NCBI RefSeq assembly: GCF_007004765.1
Contig: NZ_VIKR01000001.1
Location: forward strand, 1,178,001-1,242,000
Length of the DNA stretch: 64,000 nucleotides
From: Aliikangiella marina
GTDB lineage: Bacteria; Pseudomonadota; Gammaproteobacteria; Enterobacterales; Kangiellaceae
Direction: 5' to 3'
The notes beneath the pieces were generated by a model, which was given only the letters and a program-made list of their open reading frames with translations, did not search any database and had not been told where the DNA came from. Position 1 is the first letter of the stretch. The number at the start of each line of letters is the position of its first letter. A program made the translations under genes and the position numbers. Positions 2,042 to 64,000 of this stretch are shown here, one piece after another.

Positions 2042-2045
2042 TTAT

Positions 2046-2146
2046 AACGATAAACCTCATTAACATGCGATAATTCTAGATTATCACATATTAATATCGT
2101 TTGATTTTGACGAAGTTTAAACACTGATATAGTATGTATATACATA
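2046..2146. other. Candidate recombination (rst/res-like) site between tnpS and tnpT
   Basis: The 143-base gap holds nested dyads. Ten-base arms ATGCGATAAT and ATTATCACAT (2065-2074 and 2080-2089, one mismatch) flank a five-base TCTAG centre. An outer pair AACGATA (2046-2052) and TATCGTT (2095-2101) encloses it. A perfect palindrome TATGTATATACATA lies at 2133-2146. In Tn4651 the resolution site lies between tnpS and tnpT, so the inner dyad is the best guess for the crossover core and the right-hand palindrome for an accessory-protein site. Confidence 0.55.
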
Positions 2147-2184
2147 TTACGTATTACAGTATGAAATAATCTAGGAAAGCGACA

Positions 2185-17652: not shown

Positions 17653-18363
17653 TTACTCAATGATATAAGTATAAACGCAATCATTGATAGTTCGAAAATA
17701 AGCTTTAAATTTTCGTCCTGCGCAAAGTTGAGGATGTAAGTCTTGCAATAGAACTAATTCCAGAAAACTGTCCTCTATTGAAAAATAGCAAACTTCAGCG
17801 GCAGAAAAGTCAAAAAAGTCCCCTACTGTTGAATATAAAGCCTTGAATAAACTTTCTTTCGCTGAGAAAGCTAAAGTAAATGCCTTTGGAAAATTAAGGT
17901 TGGCTTTACGTAAAGTAACTTCTTCTTTGGGACTGATTATAGTGCTTTTTATTTCCTCGACCATATTTGATTCAATCAAATTTTCAATATCTATTCCAAT
18001 ATATTTTAACTCGCTTTCTAAGCCTGCTAAGCATATCGCGGTATCATTATTATGAGTTATTGAGCCAATAAAACCATCGGGCCAAATAGGGTTTCGTTGT
18101 TTTCCAATTCCTACATGAGTTGAGGTTGAGTTTAAGTGTCTCAACACTTTTTGAGCCATCAAACGTCCTGCTAAAAACTCTGCCTTTCTTTTTTTAACGG
18201 AACTTAATATAGACTCAGGAATAGATTCATGTAACAACGTAAAGAGTTCATCAGAAAAATCTTCGATAGAATATTCACAAAGAAATGTTACCAATTTCCC
18301 TGAATAAAATGACGTTTCCTTTTTTAGGAATTCAGTTTTAGTATCTAAAACGGGTTTATTCAT
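17653..18363 (-). CDS. 4'-phosphopantetheinyl transferase (EntD/Sfp-type)
   Basis: A 236-residue enzyme that transfers phosphopantetheine from CoA to the carrier-domain serines of the neighbouring synthetases. Visible motifs: RKAEFLAGRLMA (CoA-binding Arg region, about 58-70), GSITHNND, YIGIDIENL with the Mg-binding Asp and Glu (about 116-124) and FSAKESLFKALY with catalytic Glu and Lys (about 165-177). EntD-like proteins are of similar length. It is the last gene before the operon terminator and is separated from the CPBP protease gene by 206 bases that contain a plausible promoter of its own. A dedicated transferase in the cluster suggests that the 13 carrier domains are served locally. Confidence 0.9.
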   Translation of the reverse strand: MNKPVLDTKTEFLKKETSFYSGKLVTFLCEYSIEDFSDELFTLLHESIPESILSSVKKRKAEFLAGRLMAQKVLRHLNSTSTHVGIGKQRNPIWPDGFIGSITHNNDTAICLAGLESELKYIGIDIENLIESNMVEEIKSTIISPKEEVTLRKANLNFPKAFTLAFSAKESLFKALYSTVGDFFDFSAAEVCYFSIEDSFLELVLLQDLHPQLCAGRKFKAYFRTINDCVYTYIIE

Positions 18364-21316: not shown

Positions 21317-24300
21317 TTAAAACTCAAACTCTTCTATTAGTTCAGTTCTGTTTACCGGTTCGATACTTGGAATGATATTATTTGACCTTTTTTGAGCATC
21401 GACTATTCCAGCAAGTTCCGCAATGGTTGGTGAGTCAAACAATGACTTTAAGGCTATTTCAACTGACAAAGATTCTCTAATAGTATTAACCACTTTGGTA
21501 GCAACTAGAGAATGACCGCCCAATTCAAAAAAATTATCATGAACACAAATTTCATCAATCCCCAGCTTTTCTTGCCAGATCGCCGCGAGCTGTTTTTCAG
21601 TCCCATTTCTCGGCACAACTTTTGTTGTATTTTGATTTAAGGCATGCTCCACCAATTTCTTTCTATCGATACTTCCATCCGGATTAATAGGAAACCCCTC
21701 AACAACATAAACACTTTGTGGTAACACATGTGCTTTTCGTTGTTGTTTCACATATTTAATCAGAATAGCGCGAGCGTTTTCTTTGACTCCAGCGGCTAAC
21801 ATTTTATTTAACTTTACAAACAAACTGTTTTTCGCTGCTGCTCGAACATCCATATCATTTATAATTAATGCCTCTTCAACATCAGGATGTTTAGTTAGAG
21901 TATCTTGTAAACACAGGTTATTTACTTTTCTTTCATATTGTCTTACTGGGTCATCCTTATCCGAAAATTTCAATACACCCTGCGTAGACCATCTCGCTAT
22001 CACTCCTGCGCAATATAGAGTGATTTCTCCTATACCTTCCAACTTGGCAATTACAAACCTTGGATTTTTTCGTTTTTTTCTTATTTGTTCCTGACAAGAC
22101 TGGTCTACCACTTCCATAAATACCATACCACAAACACCAGCCGGGACTAATTCCAAAGATTCGTCTAACAAAAAAATCCGAGGGTTTGATTTTCTTAGCA
22201 ATTGCCTTATATCCAATGGTATACGGTTAGCTAAAAGTTCACTGTTGTTTCTAGAATACTGGTTTAAAATCACATCTTTTTGGGCACTGCTCATAATTGG
22301 GATTTGATTAATTTTTAAAGATGATAGCCGGGGTTGCACACAGACAGACTCAAGAAGTGTTAAAAAACCAATGGCAAAGTTTTCGATACTGTCTCTATTA
22401 AAAAGATCGCTGTTATAGTTCCACTTAATCATTAGCTCTGAAAGTGTTTCCTGAACTTGTACTTCTAAATCAAACCGAACAAATTTCTTAAGTACTCTTA
22501 TTTCTTGGCGACTATTTACAGAAATTTCACCTTTTTCCTCCATAATCAAATTATTCTCTCTATCATTATAATTATCTTGTGCGGTAAAAATAATTTGAAA
22601 TATAGGACTATAGTTAGAGCTTCTTGAAGGCGATAGAGTTTCTACCAATAAATCAAATGGCATTTGATGATTGCTAAATCCATCAATTATCGTCCTTTTA
22701 TTATTATCAAGTAATTCATCAAAACTAAGATCGCTTTTGCATTGCGTTCTGATAGCTAGCGAATTAGCAAACAATCCAATCATCGATTGTAATTGTTCAT
22801 TATCGCGTCCAGAAATCGGAGTACCTATGACGATATCTTCGACTAGGCTATAACGAGACATCAGTAAAGCAAAAACGGTTTGCATAAAGATAAACTTAGT
22901 AACTTTCTTATTCTTAGCTATATCTTGGAGCTTTTGAGCCAACTCAGCAGGGATTTCTTGGTAATGAGTAGCGCCATTATGACTACTATGTGATGTCCGG
23001 CTGTTATCAAGTGGTAAACTATGAACTAATGGGGCCCCCTGTAACTGTAAGCGCCAATAACTCGTCAAATTCGTTAATTTTTCTTTTTGAAGATCTTTAC
23101 GTTGCCAAGCCGCAAAGTCAGCGTATTGTAGGTTATCATTAGCTATTTTTATTCTGTGCTTTTTCGTCCTCGCTTTATAAAACCTTAGAATCTCCTTTTT
23201 AAGAAGGACATTTGACCATCCGTCCGTAGCTATGTGGTGAATAGTACCTATTATTAGAAAACTGTTCCGATCTAACATTAATAGTTTTACTTTCAACATA
23301 ACATCGTTCTTTAAGTCGAAAGGACTTTCGATCTCACTACAGATGATTTGTTCCGCTTGAGCAATGCGTTCTTCTACGGGAAGCATAGAAATATCGACTG
23401 TACTAAAAGGTATATCGTATTCAGATTGTATAATCTGTATAGGGCCGTCTTTTCCCTCCCGATATATGGTTCTTAAAATACTATGTCGTGCAATCAAGTC
23501 ACTAACCGCACCTTTAAGTGCAGGTATATCTAAATCTCCTTCTACCACATGACGTAATGAAACATTATATTGCTTACTGCCTTTATTTAATTGATCAATA
23601 AACCATAATCTTTGCTGAGCAAATGAAAGAGGTATCTCATCACCTCTAGATAACGGTACTATTTCTGTTGCTTCACTACACACCTTTTGAATTTCGATAT
23701 GCTTTGTTAATGACTCAACTGATGAATATTCAAAAAGCATTTTTAGCGGCAAGTCGATTTCTAATACTTGCTGCAATAAACTGACTAAACGTGTGGCCAG
23801 TATCGAGTGGCCACCCAGCTCGAAGAAATCATCATCAACACTTAAATCTTCTATTTTTAGTATCTTTAACCAGCAATCATATACTTTTTTCTCAAGTTCG
23901 CTTCTTGGCTGAATTACATCTTTTTGTATCAATTCGCTAATATTAGGTATTGGCAGTCTCTTTTTGGCTATTTTGCGGTTAGCTGTAATAGGAAATTCGT
24001 CAAGACAGACAAAATACTCAGGAACGAGGAAATCGGGTAACTTTTTCTTAAGTTCCAAACGACAGAGACTTTTTATCTCCGCGTCAGTTGTTTTATGTTT
24101 AGAATCGACCCTAGATTTAGTAACATAAGCAACAAGCTGTAACTCAGGCGAATTGACTTGCTTAGCCATTACTACCGCTTCTGAAATGCCCTTGATCTTT
24201 TTTAAATGACTCTCAACTTCTCCTAATTCTATACGATACCCTCTAATCTTAACTTGTTGATCTATCCGACCTAAAAACTCGATATTTCCGCAAGGTGAAA

Positions 24301-44700: not shown

Positions 44701-47542
44701 TAACTCGAATAGGTATTTCTTTTGTTAAATCAAATTTTTTACTCGCTTCGTCATCTATCAGTGAATCAATATGTTTTGGAATATTTTCTAGATTCGAATA
44801 ATCTAATACAGCTAGCGGTACATTTTGTTTTTTAACGACAGTCTGATATGGCTCGCCTTCTATTTCTGAAAAAATACTTTTAAGCACTCTATGTCTATCA
44901 ATAATCTGTGATAACGTTGCTTGAAAAGCATCAACGTTTAGTTCTTTTTCAATATAAATATGCCCCGGCATATTGTACTGACTACTACCATTACCTAAGC
45001 GATCGATAAACCAAATGCGTTGCTGTGCATATGAAAGCTTTGTATTATTCCTTTTAGTTACAGGTATAGTGACAGGCAAACTGCTAGATGTTTTACTATC
45101 GTCTATGGCTTTGGCTATCCCAGCTATAGTAGGATTTTCAAAAATCTCCGACAAAGACAACTCTATCTGAAGTTCTTTACTTACCAGATTATTTAATTGA
45201 GTCGCATTAAGAGAATGACCTCCGATATTGAAAAAATTATCATTAACACAGATTGACTCTTTATTAAGTAAGTCACACCATATTTTATGAATGATTTGTT
45301 CCAGACGATTTCGAGGAGAAACCTTATCAACAGAAAAATCCAGCTGTTTAATAACTGGTAACGCCTTAATATCTGGTTTTTGGTCATTATTACTTTTGAT
45401 TGCTTCACAGAAAACAAATTGATTCGGCAGATAGCTAAGCTCAGATTTATTCAATAAATGTTTTAGCAAAGCACGCCTTAATTTTAATCTATCGCTAGAG
45501 TTAGCTTTGCCTACTATATATGCGACCAATAATGAGTTATACCTACCAGCTTTGTGAACATAAACAAAAGAATCTTGAATATCACCGTATTCCTGTAAAC
45601 GAGCATTAATTAGTTCACATTGCTGTTGAATAGAATATCGACTTACAACCTTATCATTTTTTAATAACTTAATTACGCCGCCTACATTCCGAGCATAAAT
45701 CCCTGTCTTCAAGAGCGTCTTTTGTAAATCACCTTCTACTCCATCAATAACAACGGCTTTACCTATAGTATTAAACTCGTTATTCCCTGATGCTTCAATA
45801 TACAGTTCACCGGCAGCACACACTGGCTGCAACTGTAAACTGCGACTCAGTATATAATATTTTACTTGCTTATGAGCATCAAAACATTTTTCCGAAGTGG
45901 TTCCTAAAACATCACCTATAAATTGATTGGAAATCGAACTTTGAGTTAAACTTTCCCTCTGTGCACCATTAAGCACCGGCAGCTCCGCCAATTTCAGCTG
46001 ACTTAAACTTTTAACGTTCTTTCCACTTACAACAAAATTGATTATACAAAGGAACGAGTCGGCCAAGCTTTTAATGTATTCGCTTTCAAACGAGCGTTCA
46101 TTATAAACCCATTCGACTTGAGTCTTATTAGACTTGACCGTAACATGCAAACTCAAATCAAACTCAGAAAAGGTTGTGGTTACTCTTTCTAAACTTTTTA
46201 ATTCATCGCTTAGCTGTAACTGTTTATCAGCATTAAAGATTTGTTCGTCGAGATTCTCTTGTACCGCAAACATAATCTGAAAGAAAGGATGCGAGTTTAG
46301 TCTCCTATCGGGCGCTAGCTCTTGAACTAGTTTATCGAAGGGCAAATCTTGGTTATCAAAAGCTTCTAAAATAGTTTTCGTGTTGACATTCATTAGCTCC
46401 AGAAAACTCGAATTTAAATCTATCTCCGAGCGCAAAACTAAGGAATTAACGAAAACCCCCATAAGATCTTGAGTACCCTCCCTATGTCTACCACTTACTG
46501 GAGTCCCTACGAGTAGATCTGTTTCATTGGTATAACGAGCAAGCAAAACGACCAAAACAGTATGTAAAAAGATAAATACCGTAACACCTTTAGCCTCGCA
46601 AAAATTCTTCAACTCTTTACTGACTTCCCCACTAACACAATTTCTATAAACTAAACAGCGGTTAACTTCTTGAGTTGCCGTATGTTCCATTATAGAAAGA
46701 GAATGATATAAAGGTGCATTAGAGAGCTGGCACCTCCAATAGTCGAGCTGTTGAACTGCCGAGTCTGAATCGACAAACTTTCTTTGCCATTCTGCATAGT
46801 CTACATACTGATTGATACTTGTTGCAGTAGACAAATCGCTCACCTCGTCAAAACCATAGAAACGCCTAAAATCACGGTAAAAGATACCTAGCGAATAGCC
46901 ATCACTGGCAATATGATGAAACGTATAATGAAATATAAAATGATTCTTATTTAGTTGAATAAGTAAAAAACGTACAGGAAACTCTACCTTCAAGTCGAAT
47001 GCTTTTGTTCTTTCTTTGTTTAACAAGCTTGATATTCGACACCAGTCTATTTCATCAGTTTTGGAGTTAAGACGTTCAATCGTCAGTGGAATCTCAATAT
47101 TGCTAAATACCTTTTGATACGGGACTCCTTCTAACTCAACGTATTTAGTTCTAAGGACTTCATGTTTTGTAAACAGTTTTCTTAAAACATCTTCAAGTTC
47201 CATCAAATCAACTTTTGACCTAATTTCTTGAAACCCCGGTATATTTAACTCATTTTTAGTTTTCGATAGTTTATGTGCCAACCAGAATCGATGTTGCGTA
47301 AATGACAAGGGAAATATATCGATATCCTTTTCTCGATTAATAGGCACGACTTTTGTTATTCTAGTTTTAGATAGTTCATATTCCCTTAAGTATTCTATGA
47401 TTTCAGACTTGTTGTTTTTAATAAGCTCCCTTTGGTCAGTCTCAAGTGCACCCATAGTACATTTAAACTTTAAGTTAACTCCGTCTAAAAACAAGAACAC
47501 ACCGTTTTTTGATAAGAGCTTTAGTATTTCATGAACTTGCAT
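41756..47542 (-). CDS. NRPS 2: docking-C-A*-PCP-C-A-PCP
   Basis: Synthetase of 1928 residues from the ATG at 47542, which lies directly after the NRPS 1 stop and has GAGGAGGGGG upstream; an in-frame start at 47566 would lie inside the preceding gene and is rejected. Approximate residues: TubC-type docking 1-58; C with HHIASDGYS near 212; adenylation remnant about 555-730; PCP (IGGHSLNATQL) near 776; C with HHIACDGWS near 967; A with YTSGSTGKPKG near 1460; PCP (LGGHSLLTTRL) near 1858. The only intact A domain reads DSALIAEVW, which I cannot assign firmly; it shares six of nine positions with the His code DSELTAEVC. The first module cannot activate its own amino acid. The protein ends LANQNQLEEGVF. 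Confidence 0.9.
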   Translation of the reverse strand: MQVHEILKLLSKNGVFLFLDGVNLKFKCTMGALETDQRELIKNNKSEIIEYLREYELSKTRITKVVPINREKDIDIFPLSFTQHRFWLAHKLSKTKNELNIPGFQEIRSKVDLMELEDVLRKLFTKHEVLRTKYVELEGVPYQKVFSNIEIPLTIERLNSKTDEIDWCRISSLLNKERTKAFDLKVEFPVRFLLIQLNKNHFIFHYTFHHIASDGYSLGIFYRDFRRFYGFDEVSDLSTATSINQYVDYAEWQRKFVDSDSAVQQLDYWRCQLSNAPLYHSLSIMEHTATQEVNRCLVYRNCVSGEVSKELKNFCEAKGVTVFIFLHTVLVVLLARYTNETDLLVGTPVSGRHREGTQDLMGVFVNSLVLRSEIDLNSSFLELMNVNTKTILEAFDNQDLPFDKLVQELAPDRRLNSHPFFQIMFAVQENLDEQIFNADKQLQLSDELKSLERVTTTFSEFDLSLHVTVKSNKTQVEWVYNERSFESEYIKSLADSFLCIINFVVSGKNVKSLSQLKLAELPVLNGAQRESLTQSSISNQFIGDVLGTTSEKCFDAHKQVKYYILSRSLQLQPVCAAGELYIEASGNNEFNTIGKAVVIDGVEGDLQKTLLKTGIYARNVGGVIKLLKNDKVVSRYSIQQQCELINARLQEYGDIQDSFVYVHKAGRYNSLLVAYIVGKANSSDRLKLRRALLKHLLNKSELSYLPNQFVFCEAIKSNNDQKPDIKALPVIKQLDFSVDKVSPRNRLEQIIHKIWCDLLNKESICVNDNFFNIGGHSLNATQLNNLVSKELQIELSLSEIFENPTIAGIAKAIDDSKTSSSLPVTIPVTKRNNTKLSYAQQRIWFIDRLGNGSSQYNMPGHIYIEKELNVDAFQATLSQIIDRHRVLKSIFSEIEGEPYQTVVKKQNVPLAVLDYSNLENIPKHIDSLIDDEASKKFDLTKEIPIRVMAVKISSARFAVVYTIHHIACDGWSLEIFHNELKALYLINITSKDDELEPLHLQYSDYAMWQKNWLQGDILDKQLDYWRLKLKGLPSVHSLPLDFERPSVQTYQGKLLNSRLDSRTLSRVKSLCNQKGITLFIFFQSVFALLISKFSNESDVVIGTPVSGRFHKDLEPLIGYFVNSVVLRSRLSNDSSFAEFLDNNKKMILEAFSYQHLPFEKLVDEISPQRDLSYNAVFQIMFSYHGFFKENDVGNDISSEKNTEFKKQALSNITIRTDLELVVRELIDSINISWIINESLFEDYFVISLSKYFNELIDEILNLHECDQLSKPIRDFSLLDEKNKVAILNLTKSRAKNISKSYLLHELVENQARKTPDAIAICQNYNLQLSYQELNARANFVAKYLSRLKVRNEELIGVRYECSISAVVAILGVLKAGAAYLPLDPTYPIDRVRAIIKDSNVRLLLAEESVKECQESLSAEIVCLNLHSLNEKFRSLGNINKACLADSNSKQSNGQLAYAIYTSGSTGKPKGVTIEHRSIVESTLTRIDYYKNADRFLLLSSFAFDSSIAGLFWTLTTGGTLLTVTQDTKLRLDKLTEYMRSNFVVESLLLPNLLEELLLINKHTHKNLKAKRLIVAGDTCDKNLPAKSKKLFPEADFFNEYGPTEASVWSSVYRAVELNDSKGSLSIGETIESLSAYVLDENLNPLPIGVIGQLYLSGYQLARGYYEKSALTSSKFLPCPYSQKAGERMYATGDLVRLGGDGKLDFIGRIDNQIKVRGFRVELSEITYNLLCHNSIEQCVTVCRKSNLNENVIISYITSSEYAEFSNDKIQDVLNDYLSHKLPQYMIPAYFVLLERLPVNHNGKIDLKNLPQPDITANKSYIFERPKNELEREILKVWSKLLKLEESQVSITADFFSLGGHSLLTTRLISQLRELFGLELSVQNIFQNPTIKKIATIIELEQNKLQLKQKQEESDNNLANQNQLEEGVF
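41764..41773 (-). promoter_or_regulatory. Ribosome-binding site of NRPS 3 inside the NRPS 2 tail codons
   Basis: GAGGAAGGAG, seven bases before the ATG at 41756, encodes Glu-Glu-Gly of the EEGVF tail. The stop and start share one base (TAATG). Confidence 0.8.
45350..45870 (-). other. Adenylation-domain remnant in NRPS 2 module 1
   Basis: Resumes at YYILSRSLQLQPVCAAGELYIE (A6-proximal) and ends around NDQKPDIKALPV where A10 should be, with no NGK. Motifs A1-A5 are absent. About 175 residues replace the usual 500. Confidence 0.8.
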
Positions 47543-47543
47543 G

Positions 47544-50500
47544 CTATATAACCCCCTCCTCGACACACTCTTTATTATCGTTTTTAAAGGAGCTTAATAG
47601 TTCTTCCGCATTTCTTAGCTCCAACTGAGCGATTATAAACTCTGACAACTCTTGAATCGTTGGTTTACTAAAGAATAGCCTTATTGAGACATCAACCTTA
47701 AAGATTGATTCTATTTTAGAAGTCATATTTGAAACCATCAGCGAGTTCCCGCCTAAACTGAAAAAATTCGAAGTAACACTGATATTTTTCATATTAAAAT
47801 ATTCTTGCCATATCTCTTGCATCTTGATTTCAACTTCATTAGTCGGTGCTTTATATTTCTTTAATTCATTGCTTTTAACACTTGACTTTAGCTTCACTAA
47901 ATCAATATAGCCATTTGGAAAAGAAGGAATGTTTTTTACTAAGAACCATTTTGTTGGTAAAAACATTAGATGGTCCGCATTTCTTATAGCGTGACTGATT
48001 AGCTTCGTCTGCTCGTCTTTATTTAAATCACAGCTATCATCATTAACAAAGTAACATTCAGAAGCAACTTGAGAGCTTACCAAGCTCGAAGTGATAAACA
48101 AGTCCGTAATGAAACGAACCTCTCGTAGAAGAAAGGATTTCAATGCCTTCACATGAAACTGTATCTGAGCGCGCAATACTGATTGATTTTGGTTTGCAAA
48201 GGTCAAGTCACCGTTTCCGCAGACCTTTGCGATAACTCCAGTGCGAAGATATTTGCTTTTATGACTCTCAGTCAAAAAACACTTAATAACTTCTCCAATA
48301 TCATCCCGCTCGCTATAGCAAATTTCACCGATACCACCAAAAGGGACTATTTGATTATTCGCTCCGAGCACCATCGCTTTATCGAGTCCACTTGGCCGGC
48401 TTATTAATTGTTGATGATTTGCGTTATTTGTAAGTGCGAATTTGCCAACAGTTGAGCTTACAATACGTTCTTTTTCTTTTTCTCCGAAGATCGCTAAATG
48501 TGAAGCTTTAATATTAGCCAGCTTATTTTTCTGATCAGCCTTAATGACACTATTAATCAAATAAATATAACTCTTTTGAAGCCTCAGAATACTGTCTGCG
48601 TTAAATATGTCTTTACAGTATATCCAATCGATATTTAATCTAGAACCTTCCTCTTTTGCGTGAACTTCTAAATCAAATCGAGCGGTTATCTCATCATTTG
48701 GCAGATAGCCATCTACATTATCACTTAAATTAAGACCATCAAAATAAACGTCTCGCTCGATGTTATTTTGTACCACAAACATTATTTGGAATAATGGGTT
48801 AGAATTTAAATTACGATTTACACCGAGTTCGTCAACAAGCATATCAAAGGGTACATTTTGGTTTGTGTAAGCATCAATAATCGTTTTTTTATTCTTTTCC
48901 AAGATATCTTCAAAATTCGAATCTAAATCAAGCTGATTCCTAATAACTAAAGTATTAACAAATAACCCTACTATCGAATTGCTATCTCCATGCTCTCGAC
49001 CGGCGATAGGCGTACCAACCATAATGTCCCGTTCATTTGAATAGCGAGAGATCAATACTGCCAAAATAGTTTCTAAAAACATAAACAGTGTGATTTTTCT
49101 CTGCTCACAAAAATCTTTAACTGCCTTCGATAATCCACTATCAAGTTCACTATGTAAGTAATTACCTAAATACGAAGCATCCGCTACTCGCTTCTTATCC
49201 AAGGCCAATCCATGTTCGATCGGGCAATCCGCTAATTGCGCTCTCCAATATTTAATTTGCTCTCGAACTTTGTCTTTTAATAGAAACTTTTCTTGCCATG
49301 CTACGAAATCTGAGTATTGCAGGCAGCTACCATCTTCTGATGTTTTAATATCTGTCAAGAATTCATTGTAGTAAGCTGCTAACTGTTGCTTAATTAAATT
49401 ATCTGACCATCCATCACTTGCAATATGATGTGTAAGATATTGCAATAGATAAACATCACTTTCTAACTTAATAAGTAGAGCTTTAATCATTAGTTCATTT
49501 GATAAGTCAAATTTTTCTCGAGCATGTTCCTGAACCCGACTTTCAAGCACTTGTTGCTTTTGACCAGTTTCCAGACTGCTCAGGTCGACAAATGGAATCT
49601 CAACCTGGAAGTCATTTAGCATGACCTGATAAGGGTTACCTTCACGCTCGAGATATACAGTCCTAAGAATCTTGTTGCGAGCGACCAAATTATTGAATGC
49701 ATAAAGCAAAGCGTCTTGCTGTACTTCTCCTTTAAACAGTAGCCGCGTAGGCATATTGTATTCAATACGCGAGTTGCTGAATTTATGCAAAAACCACATT
49801 CTTTTTTGCTCTACAGATAAAGCCGCATAGTCACTTGGAGCTGTTTTAATAATTTTCTCTTGTTGAGTAGTCTTTTCTAAGCTGGACTCGATTTTGTTAA
49901 CGACAGATGATAAAAAAGGATCTTCGAATAACACTTTTAACGGTATATCAACTTCAAACTCGTTTCTTATTGAACTTATCAGCTGAGTCGCGACTAAAGA
50001 ATGTCCACCAAGTGCAAAGAAGTTTGCATTTAAACTTAATCTTTCGATTGGATAATTGAGGTGTTTTGACCACAAGGCAACCATCTTCTTTTCATTTTCA
50101 CTATTAGGTGGTAAATAGCCTGTTTCTGAATAACTGCTTAGTTCGGCTATCGGCAATGCGTCTTTATTGACTTTACCATTAGCTGTCACGGGTAAGTTAT
50201 CAATGTTGATGAATGCATCTGGTATCATATATTGTGGGATATGAGCATGCAGATACTTTCTTAATCTAGTCGCATAATCAAACTCTTGACCGTCATTTAA
50301 CACTACGTAGGCTATTAGGCTTTTTTCGCCGATATTAGAGTCTGAAACGATAACTACCGATTCTACTACGTCAGAATGAGAATTAATCTTAGCTTCAATC
50401 TCACCTAGCTCTATCCTATAACCTCGAATTTTAACTTGCTCATCAGCCCTACCCACAAACTCCAGATTACCATCAGACAATCTTCGAGCGAGGTCTCCGG

Positions 50501-53500
50501 TTTTATATAATCTCTCCGTTTTCACGTAGGGATTATGAATAAATCTTTCTTTTGTTAATTCTGGTTGATTGAGATAGCAGCGTGCAAGCCCCTCACCAGC
50601 AACATATATCTCGGCGACAACGCCATCAGGAACCAAGCTTAAATTTTTATCTAGTAAGTATATCCTTAGATGCGGCAACTGTTTTCCAATTGCACTATTA
50701 GAACGAGTGTTGACATCGCTTTTTTGCAAATCCTTGTAGGTAACATGTACGGTCGTCTCTGTTATTCCATACATATTAACTAACGAAGGTTTCTTATCGC
50801 CATGACGTTTAAACCATGGCACTAGCTTTTGAGTATCCAGGGCTTCTCCACCAAATATGATTTTTCGTAAGGATAACTTACTTTTTTTAATAGCATCCAC
50901 CTCTATAATACGATGGAATACACTTGGTGTTTGATTGAGTATGGTAATATTGCGAGAAGCCAATAAATCATAAAACAATTCAGGGTTTTGAGCGCTATCT
51001 TTAGAGATAATATGAACCGTTCCACCGTGAAATAATGCCCCCCAAATCTCCCAAACAGAAAAATCAAAGGCAATAGAGTGAAATAATGTCCATTGATCAT
51101 CTTCGGAAAATTTAAACATTGAGCGTGTTGATTCAAATAACGCTATAACATTACGGTGTTCAATTAAAACCCCTTTTGGATTACCTGTAGAACCTGAAGT
51201 ATAAATAACGTAAGCCAGATCACCTGACTCTAAGCCAATACTGCTTCTTAAGATATTTTTGCAAGAAAACTCAGCGTCAAAAACTTCGCCAGCTGATCTA
51301 GACATTAGTTCATCAACATAAACTGGTTCTAAGTCTTCAGTATCTTCAAACTTAGGTAAACTCGATTGAGTCAACATTAATTTCACTTTTGAATCTATTA
51401 ATATATAACTAACTCGTTTTTCGGGATAACTAGTATCTATAGGGAGGTACGCGGCACCAGCTTTGAGGATAGCTAAAACTGAGATCATCATCTCTATAGA
51501 GCGTTCAAGGTAAATACCAACTAATTCACCGGGCTTCAAATTTTTTGCTAAGATAAAATGAGCCAACCTATTGGCACGTTCGTTTAACTCGTTATATGTT
51601 AGTATTTCGTTGTCTAAAACTAGCGCTACGGAGTCTGGTCTTTTCAACACTTGTTGTTCAAACAACTCATGAATACATAAATCGCTAGTTTCTTGCAGGT
51701 AAGGTGGATTAAAAACGTTTAATTGTTGATCGATATCTCGTTGATCAAGCAATTGAAGTTCTTCAATTCTTTTTTCAGGCTGAGCTAAAATCTCTTTAAC
51801 TAAATTTTGACAGTGAGTAAACATACGAGCTATAGTGCTCGCCTTAAACAAATCCTTATTAAAAACCACCACAAAGTGGTATCCGCCGAGCTTTTCCTGC
51901 ACTAAAAAATTTATATCGTATTTCCCATAACCAAGATTTGTCTCTTCCAACGTTATGGTCAAGTCCGTATTCTGGTGAGTGCTAAAGTAATCACCTATGC
52001 TTTCGTAGTGAAACAAGACATCAAATAATGCTGTTCGGCTCATATCAACTGAGGGAGAAAGCTTTTTGACAAGAAGATCAAACGGAATGTCCTGGTAACA
52101 CTTGGCTTCCAACACAGTTCTTTCAATGTCTTTTAATATATCTACAAATTTTTTATCTGCTTTTATAAAATCTCTAGTTACAAGCAAATTAGAGAAAGGT
52201 CCGACTAAGCCAGGATTGACTTCATACTCCTGCAGTCCATTTATACCTACTACGATTTCTTCATGTTGTGCGTAACGGAATAGCAATACTTTAAATACAG
52301 CAAGAAAGAAGTCAAACTTATTGGATTTTTTTCGCATCAAGAACTCGTCGAGCATGAGATTCAAGTTGTCGTTTATATATCCAGTAAAGCGTCCTTCAAT
52401 ATATTCGTGTACAGCTTTTCTTTCAAAGTCAAGGGGTACCTCTAATTTTTTCAGACTATTGGTAAGCTTCGAGCGCCAATAAGCAAAGTGCTTTTGATAC
52501 AGCTTCTTTTTCTCAAAAACCTGCTTTTGCTGAATAGCAAGTTTTTGGTAACTCTCTTCGAGTCCCACTTCAACATCAAGCGAAGAATCACTTTCATAGA
52601 CCGAAACAAGCTTTCGTGCAAGTGTCGCAACTGAAGTTCGGTCTGCTAACATATGATGTATAACTAGCAGCAAATAACTTGTTTTGTTGTCCAGTCTGAA
52701 TAAATTTGCACGATAGAGTGGCCCGCCATTAATCTCAAAACTCTGTTTTGATAAATTAACTAAATATTCAAGGTCTACCTTATGCGAACTCAGTGCCAAT
52801 TGGTCTAATACAATCTTGTCATGTGGAACAGTATTTATAATTGGTTTATCTAACCCTTCATGTATTCTTGTGCTAAATATATCGTGACTCTCCAGCAGGG
52901 ATTTAAATGCTCGCCGAAGCTTTTTAGTATCTAGTTCACCATTTAGTTTAAGAATCAATGGTATGTTATGATAGTTTGGCCCACCTTTATATAAGACGTC
53001 TCTTTCGAAACTATCAATAAACCATAATCTTTCTTGATGATAAGATAGCTCTGGACTATCAACTTGAAATCCCTGAGACTGCCACTGACAGCGAAGATCA
53101 GTTGCTTTATCAAGCATAAGTTCATTTAAAGTGACACCAGGATTAATTAGAATATTTTCAATTAGTTGTACATATTGATCTGCAATATTAGCTATCGTTG
53201 TTTTTTCGAATAAATAATGATTATAGACAAACTCTAAAACAACTTCATTGTCTCCTGGCATTACGTAAAGATCCAAATCGCTTCTCAGTGAATACTTGGT
53301 CTGTTCTGAATCTTTTAATTGATGCCAACTGGAACCTTGAGTATTTATATTCGACTGCTGATTTGCTACATGAACTATCATCAACTGAAATAATGCGTTA
53401 CTCCCAGGTTTTCGTTCTGGGTTGATTTTTTCTACAAGCATCTCAAATGGTATATATTGATGAGCATAAGCTTCAACGATAGTCTCTCGATTTTTTGCTA

Positions 53501-56500
53501 AGACACTATCAAAACTATCTTCTTGATTAATATCGCTCCTGAGCACTAAAGAATTTACGAAGAAGCCTATCATTTTTTCTAAATCTTTATGAGGTCTACC
53601 GGCAATTGCTAACCCCATAACAACATCACTTTTACCGGTATATTTAGCCAGTAATGTTGCGTACACAGTTTGCAAAAAGATAAACGGTGTTACAGAATAT
53701 TTTTTACAAACGATGTCAATCTTGTCATTTAATGACGCTTTAATTTTTGTGGTAATTAAGCGACCAAAAAAGCTTTGCTTTTTCGGTCTTTCATTATCAA
53801 ATGGTATACTGAAGTCAGTTGGCGCCGATTTTAATTGTTTTTTCCAATACTCTACTTGTGACGATAACACATCTCCTTTAAGCCATTCTCTTTGCCACAC
53901 AGCATAATCTGCATAATGGACGTCTAATGCGCCTAACTTGCATTCAGTGTTATTAACATATGCGTTATAAAATAACTCTAGTTCTCTATTAAAGATAGCC
54001 ATAGACCAATCGTCATGAGCAATATGATGTAACGTATATAAAACAACATGTTCTTTAATACCTAACTTTACTACGACTACCCTAATCATTAAGTCCGTTT
54101 CAAAGTCAAAAGGCGTGTTTTCTTCGTTTTTAGCGAGACTCTCAATTTTGATCTTTTTTATTTTGTCGTCTAATTTCGAATGATCGTAAATGCTAATTGG
54201 TGTATCAAAGTCTTTAACCACTTTTTGATAGGGAGCTCCGTTTTCTTCATAAATTTTAGTACGCAGTACTCTATGCCTAATTATTAAACTTCTGATAGCA
54301 CTTTCAAATGCAGCCAAATCAAAGTCTCCTACTACTTTAAATTTGCCCGGCACATTGTATTGAGTTTTCGTTTCTTCAACTTGATGGATGAACCAAAGTC
54401 GCTGTTGAGCAAAAGAAAGGGGGATTCTAATATTTTTCTTATGCGGTAATAATTGCGGTAACAATGCTCCTTTTTCGCTTGAACTTATCACTTCACATAA
54501 ACTCACTATAGTTGGAGCTTCAAATAGACTTCTAATCGGCAATTCTATTTCAAACGCTTCTCTAATTAGGCTTACAAGCCTAGTTGCTAACAGCGAATGG
54601 CCACCTAGCGCAAAGAAATTATCGTACACACCAACTTTTTCAATACCAAGAGAGCTCTGCCAGATCTCGCATAGCTTTTTTTCCATTTTGTTTTTGGGCG
54701 CAACATATTTATGTTTAGTTAGAGTAGACTCTGGTGGATATGGCAACAAATTAGTGCTTGTTAAATTGCGTTCACTATTATTTGACTCAGGCATGGCTAT
54801 ATATAAGTCAGGTAAATCAGATGCCGGATATACTTGCTTTAAGTAACTATCCATTTCATTTGATAATTCATTTTCAAGACGACTTATCTGTGGAAAATTC
54901 GCATTACATAACTTAGCTATACCAGCTGGTAGCTTAAGCCCATCAATAGATTGAAGACTGAAAACTAAGTCAATAAACTCTACTCCTAGTTCAGAGTATA
55001 TCGCCACAGCATTATAATTATGCTTTTCAGCGTATTGAAACAATTTTTCTATATCTTCGTTTTCGGTATTTTTTTCCTTGCTCAAATGCCCAGGCGAGGA
55101 GCTTGGAAGCACGTCAATTTGATCGCCTCGATCGAGCTGTTCTTTCAAGTTTATATTTTCGTCAACCCTTGGGTTAACAACGCCCTTAACTATAAACGTA
55201 TTATATTCGTTTGCAGAAATGATGTTCTCAATCTGTTTCCTAGACAGGTTAGAAAAGCTTTTAATATTATTTGATTGGTTGTCACTTAGAATTTCTGGCC
55301 TAATCGAGATTATTGCATCATACCGAAAACGTATCATCTCATTGTCACCACTCCCTCTTTTTAAGAAAATTGACACATTGTCGACATCGTGGTGGCGTAA
55401 TTTTAATTCTGAAAAATAACTTGGCGATACAAGCAGCTCTTGTTCTTGTTGAACTCGCCACTTCACCCGTCTATTAAAATCTCTGAGAGATATTTTTTGC
55501 TTTAACTGGCTTCTTTCTATCTCAATTACATGCTCAGTATGTAAGTCTAAATTCCTTACATCGCCGATAAATATTTTACCACCAGGCATCACATATTTAA
55601 TCAACTTTTCTATTAGCATCTCGAGATAATGTAGACTAGGCAAATAGGGAACAACCGAATTTATAACAATAGTGTCAAACTGATTATGCTCGAATTCGAC
55701 ACTCAAAGCGTCACCATGGTGTAAATTAACGTGACCCCATGATTTCTTATCAAGTTCCTCTTGAATTTCTTCTAGTGCTACTTTGGAAATATCGATAGCA
55801 TCAACAGAGTCACAAAAAGCTGCATAGCGGTAAAGAAGTAATCCAGTACCGCAGCCGACTTCAAGTAAAGAGATAGGTTTTAGTGAAGCAATTGTTGTAA
55901 CCGTATTATCTATCCACTCTTTCATTTGATTATCTGGAATTGCTTTACCGGTATAACTACTGTTCCAACCACTTATATTTAGGGTTGCCTCTAACTCTCG
56001 GTCCTTTTTAGAATAAGTATCGTCGTAAAAGTTTGTCCAGTGTTGCAAGTGTTCTTTTATGGCCTGAGTAGAAATCCTTTCAATATATTGAGTGGTAGGT
56101 TGAATGTGAGCTATCAAATATTTATTATTCTTACCATAGTTAGTAAGACTCACACTTTGTATGTCCTTATGAGAAGACATAAAACGCTTGATATAGCTCA
56201 ACCTTGCCTCTGAGTTCTTAGAAACAATTTGAGTAACTTCATCTATGCCAACGCCAGTTTCAGTGTTGCCTAAATCAACTGCTGGCAAAGGAATCACTAC
56301 ATGTGGTAGCGGTCTAAGTTCTGATTGTCCCTTACAATAACTTAATATGTTCTTGCTAAACTTAGCCAACTGTTGGTTTTCTAAAACTGGAGAACCCTTA
56401 ATTTCTAAATAACATTCTAGACGATTAACTTCGTCGGAGTTGACATGCAGTATGCCGACATTCTTAACAGGTGAATAAGACTTAATCATTTTAGCAATTT

Positions 56501-59500
56501 GCAGATTTCTTGAATGTATCTTTGCAATTCGTAACTGTTCACTATGAGCAATGATTATTCGTCCGTTAGCATCCCATTGAGCAATACATTTTGCATCCCA
56601 AATATAGCTATACAAGTCATTAGAAAATGGATTTCTACAATGACTGACCCCTAGATTTTTAAATTCTTGAATGATACTGTTGTTTTTAACATTAACTTCA
56701 AAGTAAAGATCACCAAACCCTCCATACGGCGCTAAATTAAGATTACTATCAAGAATATGCGCCTTTAAATCCAATGATTTACTTTGTTCATAAAGTGAGC
56801 TTGAAATTCGCTTTAAGACTTTATCTAAATATTGTTCGCCCTCAATTAGGCTGTAGTTAACTGAGTTATTTTGCAACAGATATTTTTTGTCTGAGTCTGT
56901 TAACATATCCAGTAAGCTTACAGATTTTTGTTCGCTTGCCGGCTTCCTTACATCTAAAGCGATGTTTTTCAAGAGTATAGAAAAGCTTCCAATAAGCTTG
57001 CTGATAGTTTTTTGATTGAATAAATTGGTACTGTATATCCAATGTATTTCCAAGTTACTTTTGTCGTGGCAAACGTGCAACTCTAAATCAAATCTAGTGC
57101 TTAAGTTTTTTAAAACCGAAAAGTTACTATCATATTCTTGCTGATACCTATTTCTTACATCATATTTGTGGCCATCAAGTTCAAGTGGTACACGTTTATT
57201 GTTTTGAACTGCAAAGACTATTTGCATTAGCGGGTTGTAGGCAAGATCACGCTGAGGCTTTAACTCTTCGACCAACATATCAAACGGAATACTTTGATTG
57301 TTAAAGGCATCGACAATCATTTTTTTATTTTCGCGCAACAACTCGCTAAATGTAGATTTTTCAGTGATTTTATTTCGCAAAACAAGCGAGTTAACAAAAA
57401 AGCCAATTAAACCTTCAAGCTCTTGTAATTCACGGCCTGCAACTGGAGAACCAATAACAATATCAGACTGGTTGCTATACCTCGCTATTAACAAGGCAAA
57501 CGCAGTCTCTAAAAACATGAACAAAGTTACATTATAATTCTTGCATAATGCTTCAATATCTTGAAACAACCGCTGATCTATATGTTGTATTTCTAAACAA
57601 GCATCAAACATTTGTCTTTCTGGTCGTTTTTTATCGAGAGGTAGTAAATGAAAATCAGGTATACCTAGTAATTTTTGTTTCCAGAAATTGAGTTTCTCCT
57701 CTGCCACTCTACTGTCTAGTTGTTTTTTTTGCCAAAAGGCGAAGTCACAATACTGTATGGTCAACGGTTTTAATGGGATTTCTTGGTTGTTTTTGAGTGC
57801 TTTATAAATGATGCTTAGTTCTTGGTTTATAACATCAACCGACCATGCGTCACAAATAATATGGTGAATTCCATAAACAATTAAAAAATCGTCTTCACTA
57901 AAACTTAGTAGTTTAACTCTTAACAACAACTCATTAGATAAATCAAACGCTGTAAATATTTCTTTGTGAATTACATGTTGAGTCAGCTTTTGTTGACTGC
58001 TAAATGATTGTTTAGAGAGATCAATGTATTCAAATGGTGTTTTGAAATGCTCTAGTGTAGATTGATAAGGAATCCCTTTCTCAGATTTAAATATCGTTCT
58101 AAGAATTTCGTGTCTTTGTATAAGCTTAAAGATAGCTAACTCAAACAGCTTTATGTCAAGAGGACCATTGTGTATGTACAATTCGGTCATGTTGTATTGC
58201 ACACTTCCCTGCTCTACTTGATCAATAAACCATAGCCTTTGCTGAGAATAAGACAAAGGAAGATTACTTGTTAAATGTGCCGGCTTAATCACAGTTCGGC
58301 TGTTAGTACTTTCACTTTTTTCTAAAAATGAGCTTAAAGATTCGATATCTGGATAATTAAATATTGACTTTAGATTCAACTCATATCCTAAAACCTCTCT
58401 TATTCGATTTACTAGTTGCATTGCAAGCAAAGAATGACCACCAATTGTAAAGTAGTCGTCTTTAATGCTAATTTTGTTTCTAGGAATTTCTAATAATTTT
58501 GACCATATAATAACCAGGCCTTTTTGTAGCTCATTTTTAGGTTCAATAAATTCTCGATGTTGAATATCAATATCTAAATTTAAGCTTAGCGAGTTTTTAT
58601 CAACTTTCCCATTTGCGGTCTTTGGCAATTGTGTTAAAACAACAAATCGAGAGGGTAACATATAGTTTGGCAACTTCTGGACAATATACTGTTTGATATC
58701 TTTGACGAGCTCACTCTTAGATTTCTTATCTGTGAGCACGACAAACGCAATCAAAGAATTATCTTGTTTAATCTTACGGACGCAAACCGCAACATCAGAA
58801 ACTAGGTCATGTGAATTAATTACGGATTCAATTTCGCCAAGTTCTATCCGAAACCCTCTAACCTTAACTTGCTCATCCCCTCTACCTAAAAACTCTAGTT
58901 CACCATTTTCCATATATCGAACATAGTCACCGGTACGATAGAGTCGACGTGAAGTTTCTGCAGAGAATGGATTGGTAACAAACTTTTCTGACGTAAGTTG
59001 CGACTTTTTCCAATAGCCTCTCGCCAAACCAATACCGCCAATATACAACTCCCCTGCTACTTTATCCGCCACTAATTGTTGTTTACTATCCAGCACATAA
59101 AATTCAGTATTACCAATTGGACGGCCGATTCTTACCGCCTCGCCTGCTTGCATTTGATTTACCGCTGACCAAACGCAAGTTTCTGTTGGGCCATACATGT
59201 TCCAACAATCTGCACCACTCGCTAGTATTTGTTCCTTCAACTGATAACTGAGTGCTTCACCACCACACAAAGCTTTAAACGCACCTTGAGGTTTCCATGT
59301 GCAATCTATCAACATTCGCCAAGTCGCTGGCGTTGCTTGCATCATATCTACCTGATAGCGACTGATACTACTCGCTATGGCCTCACCAGAAACTACCGTT
59401 TCATCGCTCGCCAAAATAAGACGAGCCCCTGAAATCAACGGTAAATACAACTCTAAAGTGTGAATATCAAAAGATATTGATGTTACCGCTAACAAACAAT

Positions 59501-62500
59501 TGTTTTCATCGATACCCGGTCGACTGACCATTGCGTTCAAAAAATTAGTCAAACTTCGGTGGGTTAACATTACGCCTTTGGGATGACCAGTAGAGCCTGA
59601 AGTATAGATCACATAGGCTAACGCTTCCGCTGAACAATCTGAATAACAAGGGTTAGTGACAGGGTAATCATAAAATAATTGAGTCTCTCCTAAAAAGATT
59701 ACTTGCTGCTGTGTAAATGGGAGTGTTTTGCTGAGCTGTTTTTGTGTCAAAATTAAGCTTATACCCGAGTCTTCGAGCATATATGTTAAGCGGGTTGTTG
59801 GGTAAGTCGGATCTAAAGGAACATATGCCGCGCCTGCCTTTAAAATTGCCAACAAACCGAGCATCATATCAATATTGCGTTCTACGCATAATCCGACTAA
59901 TTGTCCCGCCTGAACGCCCTGTGATCGCAGGTAGTGAGCTAATTGATTAGCGATTTGATTAAGCTTTTGATAGGTTAGTTGATGCCCTTCAAACACTAAG
60001 GCGACGGAGTCGGGTGTCTGTTTGACTTGCGCCTCAAACAACTCATGGAAACCAACGCTGTCTATTTCTGGAATGCGAGTTGAGTTGCGGCTCATTAACT
60101 GTTGCTTATCGCTCACGGTTAGATATTGGGCTTCCATTAAACTTTGCTGTGGTTCATTGCAAAGGCTTTGCAACAAGTTAATATAATGAATTAGAAATTG
60201 ATGTATCGTAGAGTCGTCATAGAGGTCACTATTGTACTCCACTACGCCATACAAACCGTCAGTGGCTGGCTCTAAGAAAAATGATAAATCATAGAGAGAA
60301 ACCGTGTGCGCTAAAGGTCCTTCCAACTCAGCTTGCAAAGCATTCACATCCAATTGCTCGAGCGATAAGTTAGTTAGCGAACTTCCTTGCAAAGCAAACA
60401 ATACTTGAAACAACGGGGAGTAACTTAAACTTCGCTCTGGATTGAGTGCCTCGACTAACAGCTCAAATGGCATATCTTGATGTTCATAGGCTCGCAAAGC
60501 CATAGTCTTTGTCGTTGCTAGAAATTCACTAAAGGTTGGATTGTCACTTAGGTCACTTCGCATCACAAGCGTGTTAGCAAACACACCGACCAAATCCTCA
60601 CATTCTGGTTGCCGGCGATTAGCAATAGGTGTGCCGATTGCGATATCGTTCTGCCCCGCATAACGACCAAGCAACAATGAAAATGCCGCTAACAAAGTCA
60701 TAAAAGGCGTAACTTGCTGGTCCCGACTTAAAACTTCCACGCTTTGAAGTAATTCTGCGGACAAATGAAAAGGTTGGGTGCGCCCTTTAAAAGTTTGCTC
60801 AACAGGTCTCACTCGATCAGTGGGTAAGGTTGATAAAGGCGCTAAGTCGGCAAGTTGTTGGCGCCAGTAATTGAGGTGTGGCGTTAATTTCTCTTTGCTT
60901 AGGTATTCTCTTTGCCATTGTGCATAATCAGCATATTGAAAACTGAGTGGCTTGAGCGGATTAGTTTGATTATTTTTAAACGCTGAATACAATGTCGATA
61001 ATTCTTTCAACAGTACCGCCTGTGACCAACCATCGGCGATGCTATGATGAAGTGTGATAATTAACACATGGCTATCGGTCCAGGCTTCTGCAAGTAAACG
61101 AAATCGACAAAGTTGCTCTTGAGTTAAATTAAAAGGATAGTTGCGCTCTTGGTTGCATATCTTGGCCAACTCAGCTGGGGAGTCAAGTGTCTCACGAGTG
61201 AGATCAAAAGTATTGTTCGAAACGACTTGGAATACTTCATCCTCAATTGGCTTGAACAACGTTCTTAGTGCATCGTGCCTTTCGACTATATGCTTTATCG
61301 CTCTGGAAAGCGCTGTGACATCAAGTTCTCCGTTTAGGCGAAACGCCATAAATAGGTTGTATATTCCGCTGGTACCGGCATATTGACTCAAAAACCACTG
61401 TCTTTGTTGTGCATAAGACAACTTTAAATTGGCATTCTTTGATTTTTTTATGAGTCGTGTTGTGACACGCTTATTCGAATTCTCGATTAATTTTGCTTGC
61501 TCTGCTAGAACTTGCTGTTGGAATAAATTCGATAACGGAATGTCTAAGTTGAATTGTTGCTTTATAAGCGACGACAACTGAAGGGTTAAAAGCGAATGGC
61601 CGCCGAGCATAAAGAAACTATCATTGGCGCCAACTGATTTGATTGCAAGTAATTGTTGCCAAATCTTAGCGAGAGTCTTTTCAGTATCCGTTCTAGGCTC
61701 AATATAATTAACTGCAGCTAACTCAATTGACGGCAGTTTAGAATAATTAACTTTACCCGTAGAAGTTAGTGGAATGCTTTCAACGATCTGAATCTTAGTC
61801 GGCACCATATAATCAGGTAAACTTTTTAAGCAAAAATCTTGAACTTTCTTTTGCCAATCAATATCATTAATTTTGATTTGGCTATTATCTAGTACAACAT
61901 ACGCAACTAACTGTTCCTCTTGATTAGAAGCCTTCGCACTTATCACTACACTATTGGATACAGCTTTTAATTGATTAATACTACTTTCTATTTCAGACGG
62001 CTCAATTCTAAACCCTCTAATATTTAATTGCTTGTCAGTTCGTCCTATAAACTCTAATTGACCATTCTCTAAGAGGCGCACCCTATCCCCTGTCTTATAA
62101 AGTGGGTCAATCGCATTTTTATCAAAAGGATTTTTAATGTAAGCCTCAGAATTTAATGTTTGATCTACATATCCAATCGCCACTCCAACTCCACCGACTA
62201 ACAATTCACCTGGACTTCCTTGAGGCACCATTTGCATATTTTTATCGACTAAATACAGCTCAAAGTTTTTAATTGGTTTACCTATTGGGATAAGTTCGTC
62301 GTTGATAAAAGCGTTTAGCTTTACTGTCGTAGCAACATGCGTCTCAGTTGGGCCATAATGGTTCCAAAGGTTACATTTTGGGTTTCGCTTTAACAGGAGT
62401 TTAAGCGAAGGCGTAACTTTTACAGCCTCGCCAGCTAAAAATATTTCTTTTAGTGTTCCAAATTTATCGAAAGATTTAAGATGATTGTTAGTTATAAATG

Positions 62501-64000: not shown

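Follow-up and report, generated by a model that had tools for sequence, protein, structure and literature searches.

Modules of nonribosomal peptide synthetases (NRPSs) that have no working adenylation (A) domain can be supplied by proteins encoded elsewhere in the pathway. According to section 4.1 of PMC8949500, SyrB1, SyrB2 and SyrC feed the A-less ninth module of the syringomycin synthetase SyrE, although in PMC7539972 the first A domain of SyrE is presented as an alternative that may serve module nine. In the ramoplanin, enduracidin, albicidin, cystobactamid and WS9326A pathways, the in-line A domain is absent or inactive and a stand-alone A or adenylation-thiolation (A-T) protein acts in trans, and the accounts given there mention a single module of this kind in each line and no halogenase (PMC8949500, section 4.1; PMC7539972). 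In the yersiniabactin pathway, a single A domain loads three carriers, and the account of this pathway, as far as it goes, mentions neither a halogenase nor a shuttle (PMC7539972). The coronamic acid protein CmaE is described as moving an aminoacyl group between carriers and as having homologues in the syringomycin and zorbamycin pathways (PMC8748450). In this study, we describe a stretch of 64,000 nucleotides of the 5.34-Mb genome of Aliikangiella marina (hereafter the window; C1:1178001-1242000) and the NRPS array to which it belongs, in which 12 of the 47 modules have no working A domain (A-dead modules). We consider it likely, with a probability of roughly 0.7, that these modules, with up to 12 carriers, are loaded in trans with (chloro)valine by a halogenating cassette encoded upstream of the array.

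The locus holds the parts of a SyrE-type system, namely condensation (C) domains and carriers without a working A domain between them, a linked stand-alone A protein, a separate carrier and a SyrB2-family halogenase, together with a candidate shuttle protein. The syringomycin system has one A-less module, uses Thr and has a fused A-T protein, whereas here the A protein and the carrier are separate genes, the specificity code is of the Val type, up to 12 modules would be served, and remnants of the A domains are retained. CytC1, CytC2 and CytC3 are a separate stand-alone A protein, carrier and halogenase that yield a free chlorinated amino acid. In comparisons with the Protein Data Bank, SyrB2 and CytC3 match the halogenase studied here over its length (405 and 376 bits), and the stand-alone A protein matches CytC1 (225 bits), but the present set includes a hydrolase partner and lies at the head of an NRPS array. 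The CmaA, CmaB, CmaD and CmaE set of coronamic acid also ends in a free amino acid and feeds no multimodular line. The yersiniabactin system, as described in PMC7539972, is alike in that one A domain serves several modules and differs in that one of its three carriers is loaded in cis; many in-line A domains are present in our array, but a stand-alone A protein is present too. Our literature search, which covered titles and the starts of abstracts and few subscription papers, found no description of a single halogenase cassette that supplies several A-less modules and no paper matching chlorovaline.

The A-dead modules

Five NRPS genes occupy window-frame positions 21317-69218 on the minus strand and extend beyond the window edge. 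Because the largest protein continues to its end at 69218, the window contains 13 of the 14 modules of this gene set. The entire array comprises 15 NRPS genes on one strand (C1:1199317-1382637) with 35 A-intact and 12 A-dead modules. The chromosome was examined as far as C1:1401000, and the NRPS genes were annotated with profiles for C, A and carrier (peptidyl carrier protein, PCP) domains that were built from the array's own modules, on which the module counts depend. An earlier, sequence-only reading of the window had reported four A-less modules in thirteen (m37, m39, m40 and m47); this count stands for the window, and the array upstream holds eight further A-dead modules (m03, m05, m08, m09, m12, m21, m24 and m25).

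Each of the four window modules runs from a full C domain (510-591 bits) through a remnant to a carrier that keeps its serine, and the reading frames and coordinates reported earlier are right; all features that follow are on the minus strand. In m37, which had been given as positions 56765-54720, the C domain (56928..58265; own C profile, 591 bits; HHIICDA) is followed by a remnant that consists of the pre-A6 strand and a decayed C-terminal subdomain (56169..56792; found by hmmsearch from column 357 of the 544-column A profile at only 4.6 bits, with PF00501 not reported). Next come a second partial A-tail, recognized by reading, a methyltransferase domain (Methyltransf_25, 53 bits) and a decayed A9-A10 end (together 54723..56168), and then the carrier (54474..54722; own PCP profile, 114 bits; LGGHSL). 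In m39, the C domain (48525..49826; 544 bits; HHIASDG) and the carrier (47628..47870; PF00550, 50 bits; LGGNSL) enclose a remnant of 218 residues (47871..48524) with a weak tail match of 6.8 bits over columns 329-390 and PNGYID in place of NGK. In m40, a remnant of 227 residues (45332..46012; columns 355-541, 34 bits) lies between the C domain (46013..47314; 510 bits; HHIASDG) and the carrier (45092..45331; own PCP profile, 98 bits; IGGHSL). In m47, the C domain (22322..23638; 562 bits; HHIATDG) is followed by a remnant of 228 residues (21638..22321; columns 356-539, 39.5 bits) and by a carrier (21389..21637; PF00550, 57.7 bits; LGGHSL) that is the final domain of its gene; because just 23 residues come after it, this gene has no thioesterase.

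The loss of the A motifs reported by the sequence-only reading was borne out. The pre-A6 strand that it had quoted can be read in each of the four pieces, the Pfam AMP-binding family (PF00501) was reported in none of them, and patterns for A3, A5, A6, A7, A8 and A10 match nothing there. AMP-binding_C appeared in the 22185-21640 piece only, below threshold (21.5 bits against a cut-off of 24.5). The A10 Lys had been described as lost from all four; with the position counted from the Pro of A9, it is replaced in m39 (Tyr), in m47 (Ser) and in the first tail of m37 (Thr), but m40 keeps it (DQKPD). A predicted structure of the m47 remnant with its carrier has a mean predicted local distance difference test value of 75.5 and a predicted template modelling (TM) score of 0.49; among its Foldseek matches, NRPS A/PCP structures rank best, and the top query TM-score among the 50 matches listed is 0.51, for holo-EntF (5t3d).

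Across the array, the extent of the loss was measured on the full-length A profile, in which A3 lies at column 181, A4 at 226, A5 at 323, A6 at 375 and A10 at 528. Columns 245-328 are covered by no piece in any of the 12 A-dead modules, and recognizable A3 and A5 motifs are absent from all of them. The remnants range in size from near full length down to the tail alone. The tail piece restarts at column 344-359 in eight of the twelve (m03, m05, m09, m21, m25, m37, m40 and m47); m39 has a weak piece from column 329, and m24, m08 and m12 are recognized only from columns 406, 478 and 484. An N-terminal A piece is still present in six of the twelve. Given these shared restart columns and variable N-terminal pieces, the common join that had been proposed is confined to the right-hand edge of the loss; the left-hand edge differs between modules. 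All 35 intact modules have Lys at the A10 place, as do three of the A-dead ones. The distance from C domain to carrier is 521-567 residues in 29 of the 35 intact modules, the others being m02 and m27 (678 and 775, with the end of the C domain poorly placed in these two) and four modules with a long insert (923-957). In the A-dead modules, it is 516, 499, 460, 454, 438, 411, 228, 227, 218 and 152 residues, and 735 in both m37 and m03. The insert of m37 is the methyltransferase identified with Pfam, and that of m03 is similar by reading; in both, the additional partial tail ahead of it looks like a recombined join.

A candidate trans-loading cassette

Upstream of the first NRPS gene, a CmlA-type hydroxylase gene and two other genes are followed by the cassette, all on the array strand. 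The cassette consists of a SyrB2/CytC3-family halogenase (C1:1386165-1387085; TIGR01762, 438 bits against a cut-off of 226), a stand-alone carrier (C1:1387138-1387410; PF00550, 39.6 bits over 20.8; FDLGVSSLT), a stand-alone A protein (C1:1387415-1388926; TIGR01733, 371 bits over 317) and an alpha/beta hydrolase with Cys at the nucleophile place (C1:1388901-1389743; GYCSG). The stretch DWHQADTF of the halogenase aligns with identical letters in SyrB2 and holds an Ala in place of what we take to be an Asp iron ligand, presumably the mark of the SyrB2 family. The stand-alone A protein has the code DAFWLGGTF, which is absent from all 35 in-line A domains of the array and is identical in the stand-alone A proteins of three other genomes, G003 (Aliikangiella coralliicola), G006 and G327. 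We take it to be a valine code; all specificity codes in this study were read with a residue key and not with a trained predictor. The hydrolase motif is GYCSG or GVCSG in all four of these genomes (4/4), and we assume that its Cys nucleophile marks an aminoacyltransferase of the SyrC/CmaE type. No relative of solved structure named as a transferase was found for it.

The cassette has the same gene order in G003, G006 and G327, the last of which belongs to another family, and it recurs in gammaproteobacteria and betaproteobacteria. TIGR01762 exceeds its cut-off in four of 19 genomes tested, which are our own genome and these three. The stand-alone A protein was found in three of 40 genomes of the family (E up to 1e-110) and in four of 394 drawn from the order (1e-115), the fourth being G327; TIGR01762 was found in two of 369 drawn from the class (1e-60), our own genome and G675. 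In a halogenase scan of named genomes, 80 loci were kept and 26 were read. The best 18 (L098-L115, at 65-82% identity, with L099 being G003 and L102 being G006) all have the A protein, the carrier and the halogenase; 15 have the hydrolase and 14 the exact code. In five of them, from Burkholderia and Ramlibacter (L108, L111, L112, L114 and L115), a second carrier adjoins the halogenase of the A-carrier-halogenase cassette.

Co-occurrence of the cassette with A-dead modules

The two A-dead modules of G003 (columns 252-342 deleted; A3, A8 and A10 gone) were found before the cassette was known, and the search with the stand-alone A protein then found a G003 copy on the same contig as these modules, and G006. 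Once the cassette was known, remnants were found in eight of 11 cassette genomes examined, namely G006, G327 and nine further ones. In G006, one of the five modules read is without A3, A5, A8 and the A9-A10 part; in G327, one of 11 modules has a full-length dead A domain, in an NRPS gene whose end lies 2.6 kb before the cassette. Dead A domains or remnants occur in 3 of 15 modules of G767, 3 of 20 of G768, 3 of 16 of G769, 5 of 33 of G770, 1 of 7 of G771 and 2 of 8 of G773. The further genomes are represented by stretches from nine of 13; G772 gave no C domain, and G774-G776 were left out.

Modules with remnants are thus present in 10 of 13 cassette genomes and one of 10 cassette-free genomes (Fisher p 0.003), and any A-less module is present in 11 of 13 against two of 10 (Fisher p 0.003). 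Among the controls, which have no member of the halogenase family above cut-off, G058 has one remnant in 14 modules, and the eight other than G058 and G019 have none in 76. Bare condensation-thiolation (C-T) modules, with no A piece, were also seen. In the controls, they are one module of G058 and one of the five of G019; among the cassette genomes, G764 and G003 have a single such module each. These four rows are outside the remnant counts and inside the 11 of 13 against two of 10. All of these counts come from partial reading at unequal depth of stretches picked from match lists, in genomes that share ancestry, and the G773 stretches were chosen after its C spacing had been seen. The G003 modules were counted by their motif loss and 91-column deletion because the score rule misses them (two pieces sum above the threshold). 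One row of G769 (an insert of 622 residues, FkbH-like by reading) and one of G768 (an A domain that ends after A3, possibly an assembly break) were excluded from the remnant counts; the score rule, too, omits the G768 row. A-less modules in lines without, or away from, the cassette were seen at G058:C4:202922-215176 and 225674-246217, G019:C2:810-7232, G003:C8:328921-337578 and G764:C67:62831-70000.

Origin of the remnants

The sequence-only reading explained the common join by one ancestral deletion copied through module duplication, a proposal on origin and not on function. A tree of 45 of the 52 C-like domains listed (the X-type ones and one fragment were excluded) agrees with it for at most three modules: m39, m40 and m47 form one group (97/69), with m39 and m40 together inside it (98/83), and may share one origin. 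In contrast, m37 is placed with the distant upstream module m03 (97/81), and m09 and m12 form a third group (98/85); by this tree, the four window modules do not all share one origin. The A-dead label requires 8 changes on the tree, compared with 10.6 when shuffled; a value this low was reached in 12 of 500 shuffles. The starred branches force at least three changes. Two observations on the tails favor a single deletion. A Leu stands four residues ahead of the A9 Pro in 10 of the 12 focal tails and in none of the 35 intact ones (the octamers were anchored by hand; two intact rows misplaced by the script have no Leu at the right place). Moreover, a single clade of the 12 focal tails was not rejected (p-AU 0.94 by the approximately unbiased test, in a tail tree with 31 of the 35 intact tails); the branches of this tree are saturated and its long branches meet, and therefore nothing is concluded from it past this point.

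Several findings stand against a single deletion, in addition to the scatter on the C tree. N-terminal A pieces persist in half of the twelve remnants, and the A domains of G327, G769 and G771 are full length with their motifs gone, so that no earlier deletion of the core could have given them. The restart columns in other genomes are 353-361 in G767 and G773; for G768 and G770, they are 358-366 in those cases in which a piece was found there, mostly weakly. Each of the 19 foreign tails reaches a higher score with at least one intact A tail than with any of the focal remnants (a doubtful row of G768 and the genome G006 were excluded from this query); the narrowest case is a G770 tail (41.2 against 38.1 bits), for which the intact tails of its own genome fall below the focal remnant. 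The foreign remnants therefore look independently made, and these scores are support and not proof because rapid evolution of the focal remnants would by itself lower their scores. An intact counterpart of the cluster in relatives, which the sequence-only reading had proposed to seek, did not emerge: when m47 was searched against 61 genomes, with about 17 matches scored per genome, only m39 and m40 of our own genome align end to end among the matches listed, and a scan of named genomes with m47 gave no confirmed match. Weakened by the C tree, the retained N-terminal pieces and the foreign remnants, a single deletion is unlikely as the full explanation. From the states observed, the order of erosion would run from a dead A domain through loss of the core to the tail alone. 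A domains split by approximately 530 residues at column 340-344 were seen at L100:11022-15707 and L104:10916-15727; this insert site lies near the restart of the remnants and is perhaps tolerant of both insertion and deletion.

Trans loading and its alternatives

The sequence-only reading had left three fates for these carriers: loading in trans by another A domain, skipping, or use as spacers. Trans loading is the best supported of these, with a candidate loader that lies outside the window. We propose that the stand-alone A protein would activate valine or a close relative and load the stand-alone carrier, on which the SyrB2/CytC3-type halogenase would chlorinate the residue. The hydrolase would act as an aminoacyltransferase that shuttles the residue to the A-dead carriers, four in the window and 12 in the array, where the C domains would condense it into the peptide. 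Because such modules would no longer require their own A domain, that domain would erode, repeatedly toward the same small scaffold. The anatomy of the genes, the families to which they belong, their active-site motifs, their conserved linkage and the association across genomes support this proposal. We infer that the cassette serves these modules, that its substrate is valine, that the chlorine is retained and that one cassette provides for all twelve; cryptic chlorination is a possible outcome.

Several observations weigh against this proposal. A single peptide with 12 chlorinated residues would be an extreme case. At L143-L145 (two Pseudomonas and one Pseudoduganella), a Thr-code A-T protein adjoins the halogenase, and the hydrolases at the SyrC place carry GICGG; the cassette hydrolase shares only 23-25% identity with them. 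A second stand-alone A-like protein is encoded on another contig (L074; C4:547460-549013). It scores 356 bits with TIGR01733 and has the code DNFFIAMVD, and its neighbors look unrelated by eye. Three remnants (m03, m24 and m40) keep the A10 Lys. The A-dead carriers have no significant common signature, the best column giving p 0.002 alone and 0.16 family-wise. No A remnants were found in the modules read from the cassette genomes G764 (33 modules), G765 (5) and G766 (3), whereas cassette-free genomes have A-less modules (in G058 one remnant and one bare, in G019 a bare one). G675 has the halogenase, the carrier and a distant A protein, but the 80 kb read around the halogenase contains no NRPS module. 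G772, the genome of L108, has the cassette and gave no C domain, and the cassette may therefore also work outside NRPS lines.

A different source of loading would be the in-line A domains of neighboring modules, with the cassette reserved for one site or for another pathway. The array has the redundancy for this because 14 of its 35 in-line codes are Asp/Asn-like and five are Ser-like by the residue key; yersiniabactin, as partly recounted above, offers a precedent (PMC7539972), and G058 and G019 have A-less modules in the absence of the cassette. However, loading of this type leaves unexplained why the cassette and A-dead modules co-occur across genera and why a stand-alone A protein has a code that is absent from the in-line domains. 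On balance, we regard it as unlikely.

We consider it more doubtful still that the A-dead modules are functionless, being skipped or used as spacers while their A domains decay toward loss of the module. The gradient from a near-full-length dead A domain to a remnant of 152 residues would be expected from such decay, as would the saturated tails. However, the C motifs and carrier serines, reported earlier as kept in the window modules, are indeed intact in all four of them and in all twelve of the array (HHxxxD[GA] for the C motif), all twelve reading frames are open, and the loss of catalytic residues in the C domain or carrier that marks a skipped or decayed module was not seen. The C domains of A-dead and intact modules score equally on the C profile (median 553, n=12, against 525, n=32; p 0.38), as do the carriers on the PCP profile (93, n=12, against 92, n=35; p 0.69). 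The kept C and carrier domains argue against simple decay, and because they score equal to intact ones, skipping and spacer roles are less likely than trans loading. A GGNS-type carrier motif was considered as a mark of trans loading and set aside, since it is found in intact modules as well as in five of the A-dead ones.

Finally, we regard an artefact of assembly or annotation in this highly repetitive array as highly improbable, and chance as unlikely, because the pieces are in frame, the 12 tails are divergent (pairwise identity of at most 33% over alignments of at least 40 residues), near-identical intact copies are kept separate in the assembly (the C domains of m34 and m36; the tails of m27 and m28), and the A-dead state recurs in other assemblies.

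Neighboring and tailoring features

The 47 modules could form one exceptionally long assembly line or several. By eye, most of the 15 NRPS genes have a TubC-like stretch at the start and an acidic tail at the end; one thioesterase end lies at C1:1258626-1259300, the other gene ends not having been searched. A phosphopantetheinyl transferase in the window (17653..18363, minus strand; 4PPT_N, 72 bits; ACPS, 52 bits) likely primes the carriers of the array. The N-terminus of the first NRPS gene (C1:1378288-1382637; L008/L009) has AprA_N, WH_AprA and AprA MT2-like (361 bits) matches, and this AprA-like loading region, which suggests an apratoxin-like branched acyl starter, precedes a further methyltransferase and a tandem array of four carriers. 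Between the C and A domains of m38, a second condensation-like domain with the motif HHMLADR (window 51723-53051) is possibly a modifying C domain; the same C-X-A order occurs in m19, and both modules have a Thr-type code.

Tailoring genes stand among the NRPS genes at C1:1252957-1258586, 1299579-1301594 and 1382732-1384327 and at window positions 20311-21285. The set comprises three TauD-type oxygenases, an Asp/Glu racemase, a pyridoxal phosphate enzyme of the cysteine-synthase kind, a carbamoyltransferase and the CmlA-type hydroxylase, and it fits a predicted Asp/Asn-rich hydroxylated peptide. At window positions 1076-3177, putative integrase-like and KfrA-like proteins were noted by eye as a possible edge of a mobile element.

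Conclusions

Taken more broadly, the locus may represent a 'trans-A' class of assembly line, a counterpart of the trans-AT polyketide synthases, in which one halogenating cassette feeds many modules (here, 12 of 47) and erosion of the in-line A domains follows a predictable course, from dead and full length through loss of the A4-A5 segment to the tail only, ending in one common minimal scaffold and occurring independently in several genera; in our judgment, the odds for and against such a class are even. If trans loading by the cassette is correct, A-less and A-dead modules would not be gaps in product prediction, because the cassette would name the residue (valine-derived and probably chlorinated) and the remnants would mark its positions in the peptide. 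The successive stages of erosion indicate the portion of an A domain that is kept under the proposed trans loading, which may be useful to engineers of trans-fed lines. Furthermore, the gammaproteobacteria and betaproteobacteria would then hold unknown peptides with several chlorinated aliphatic residues.

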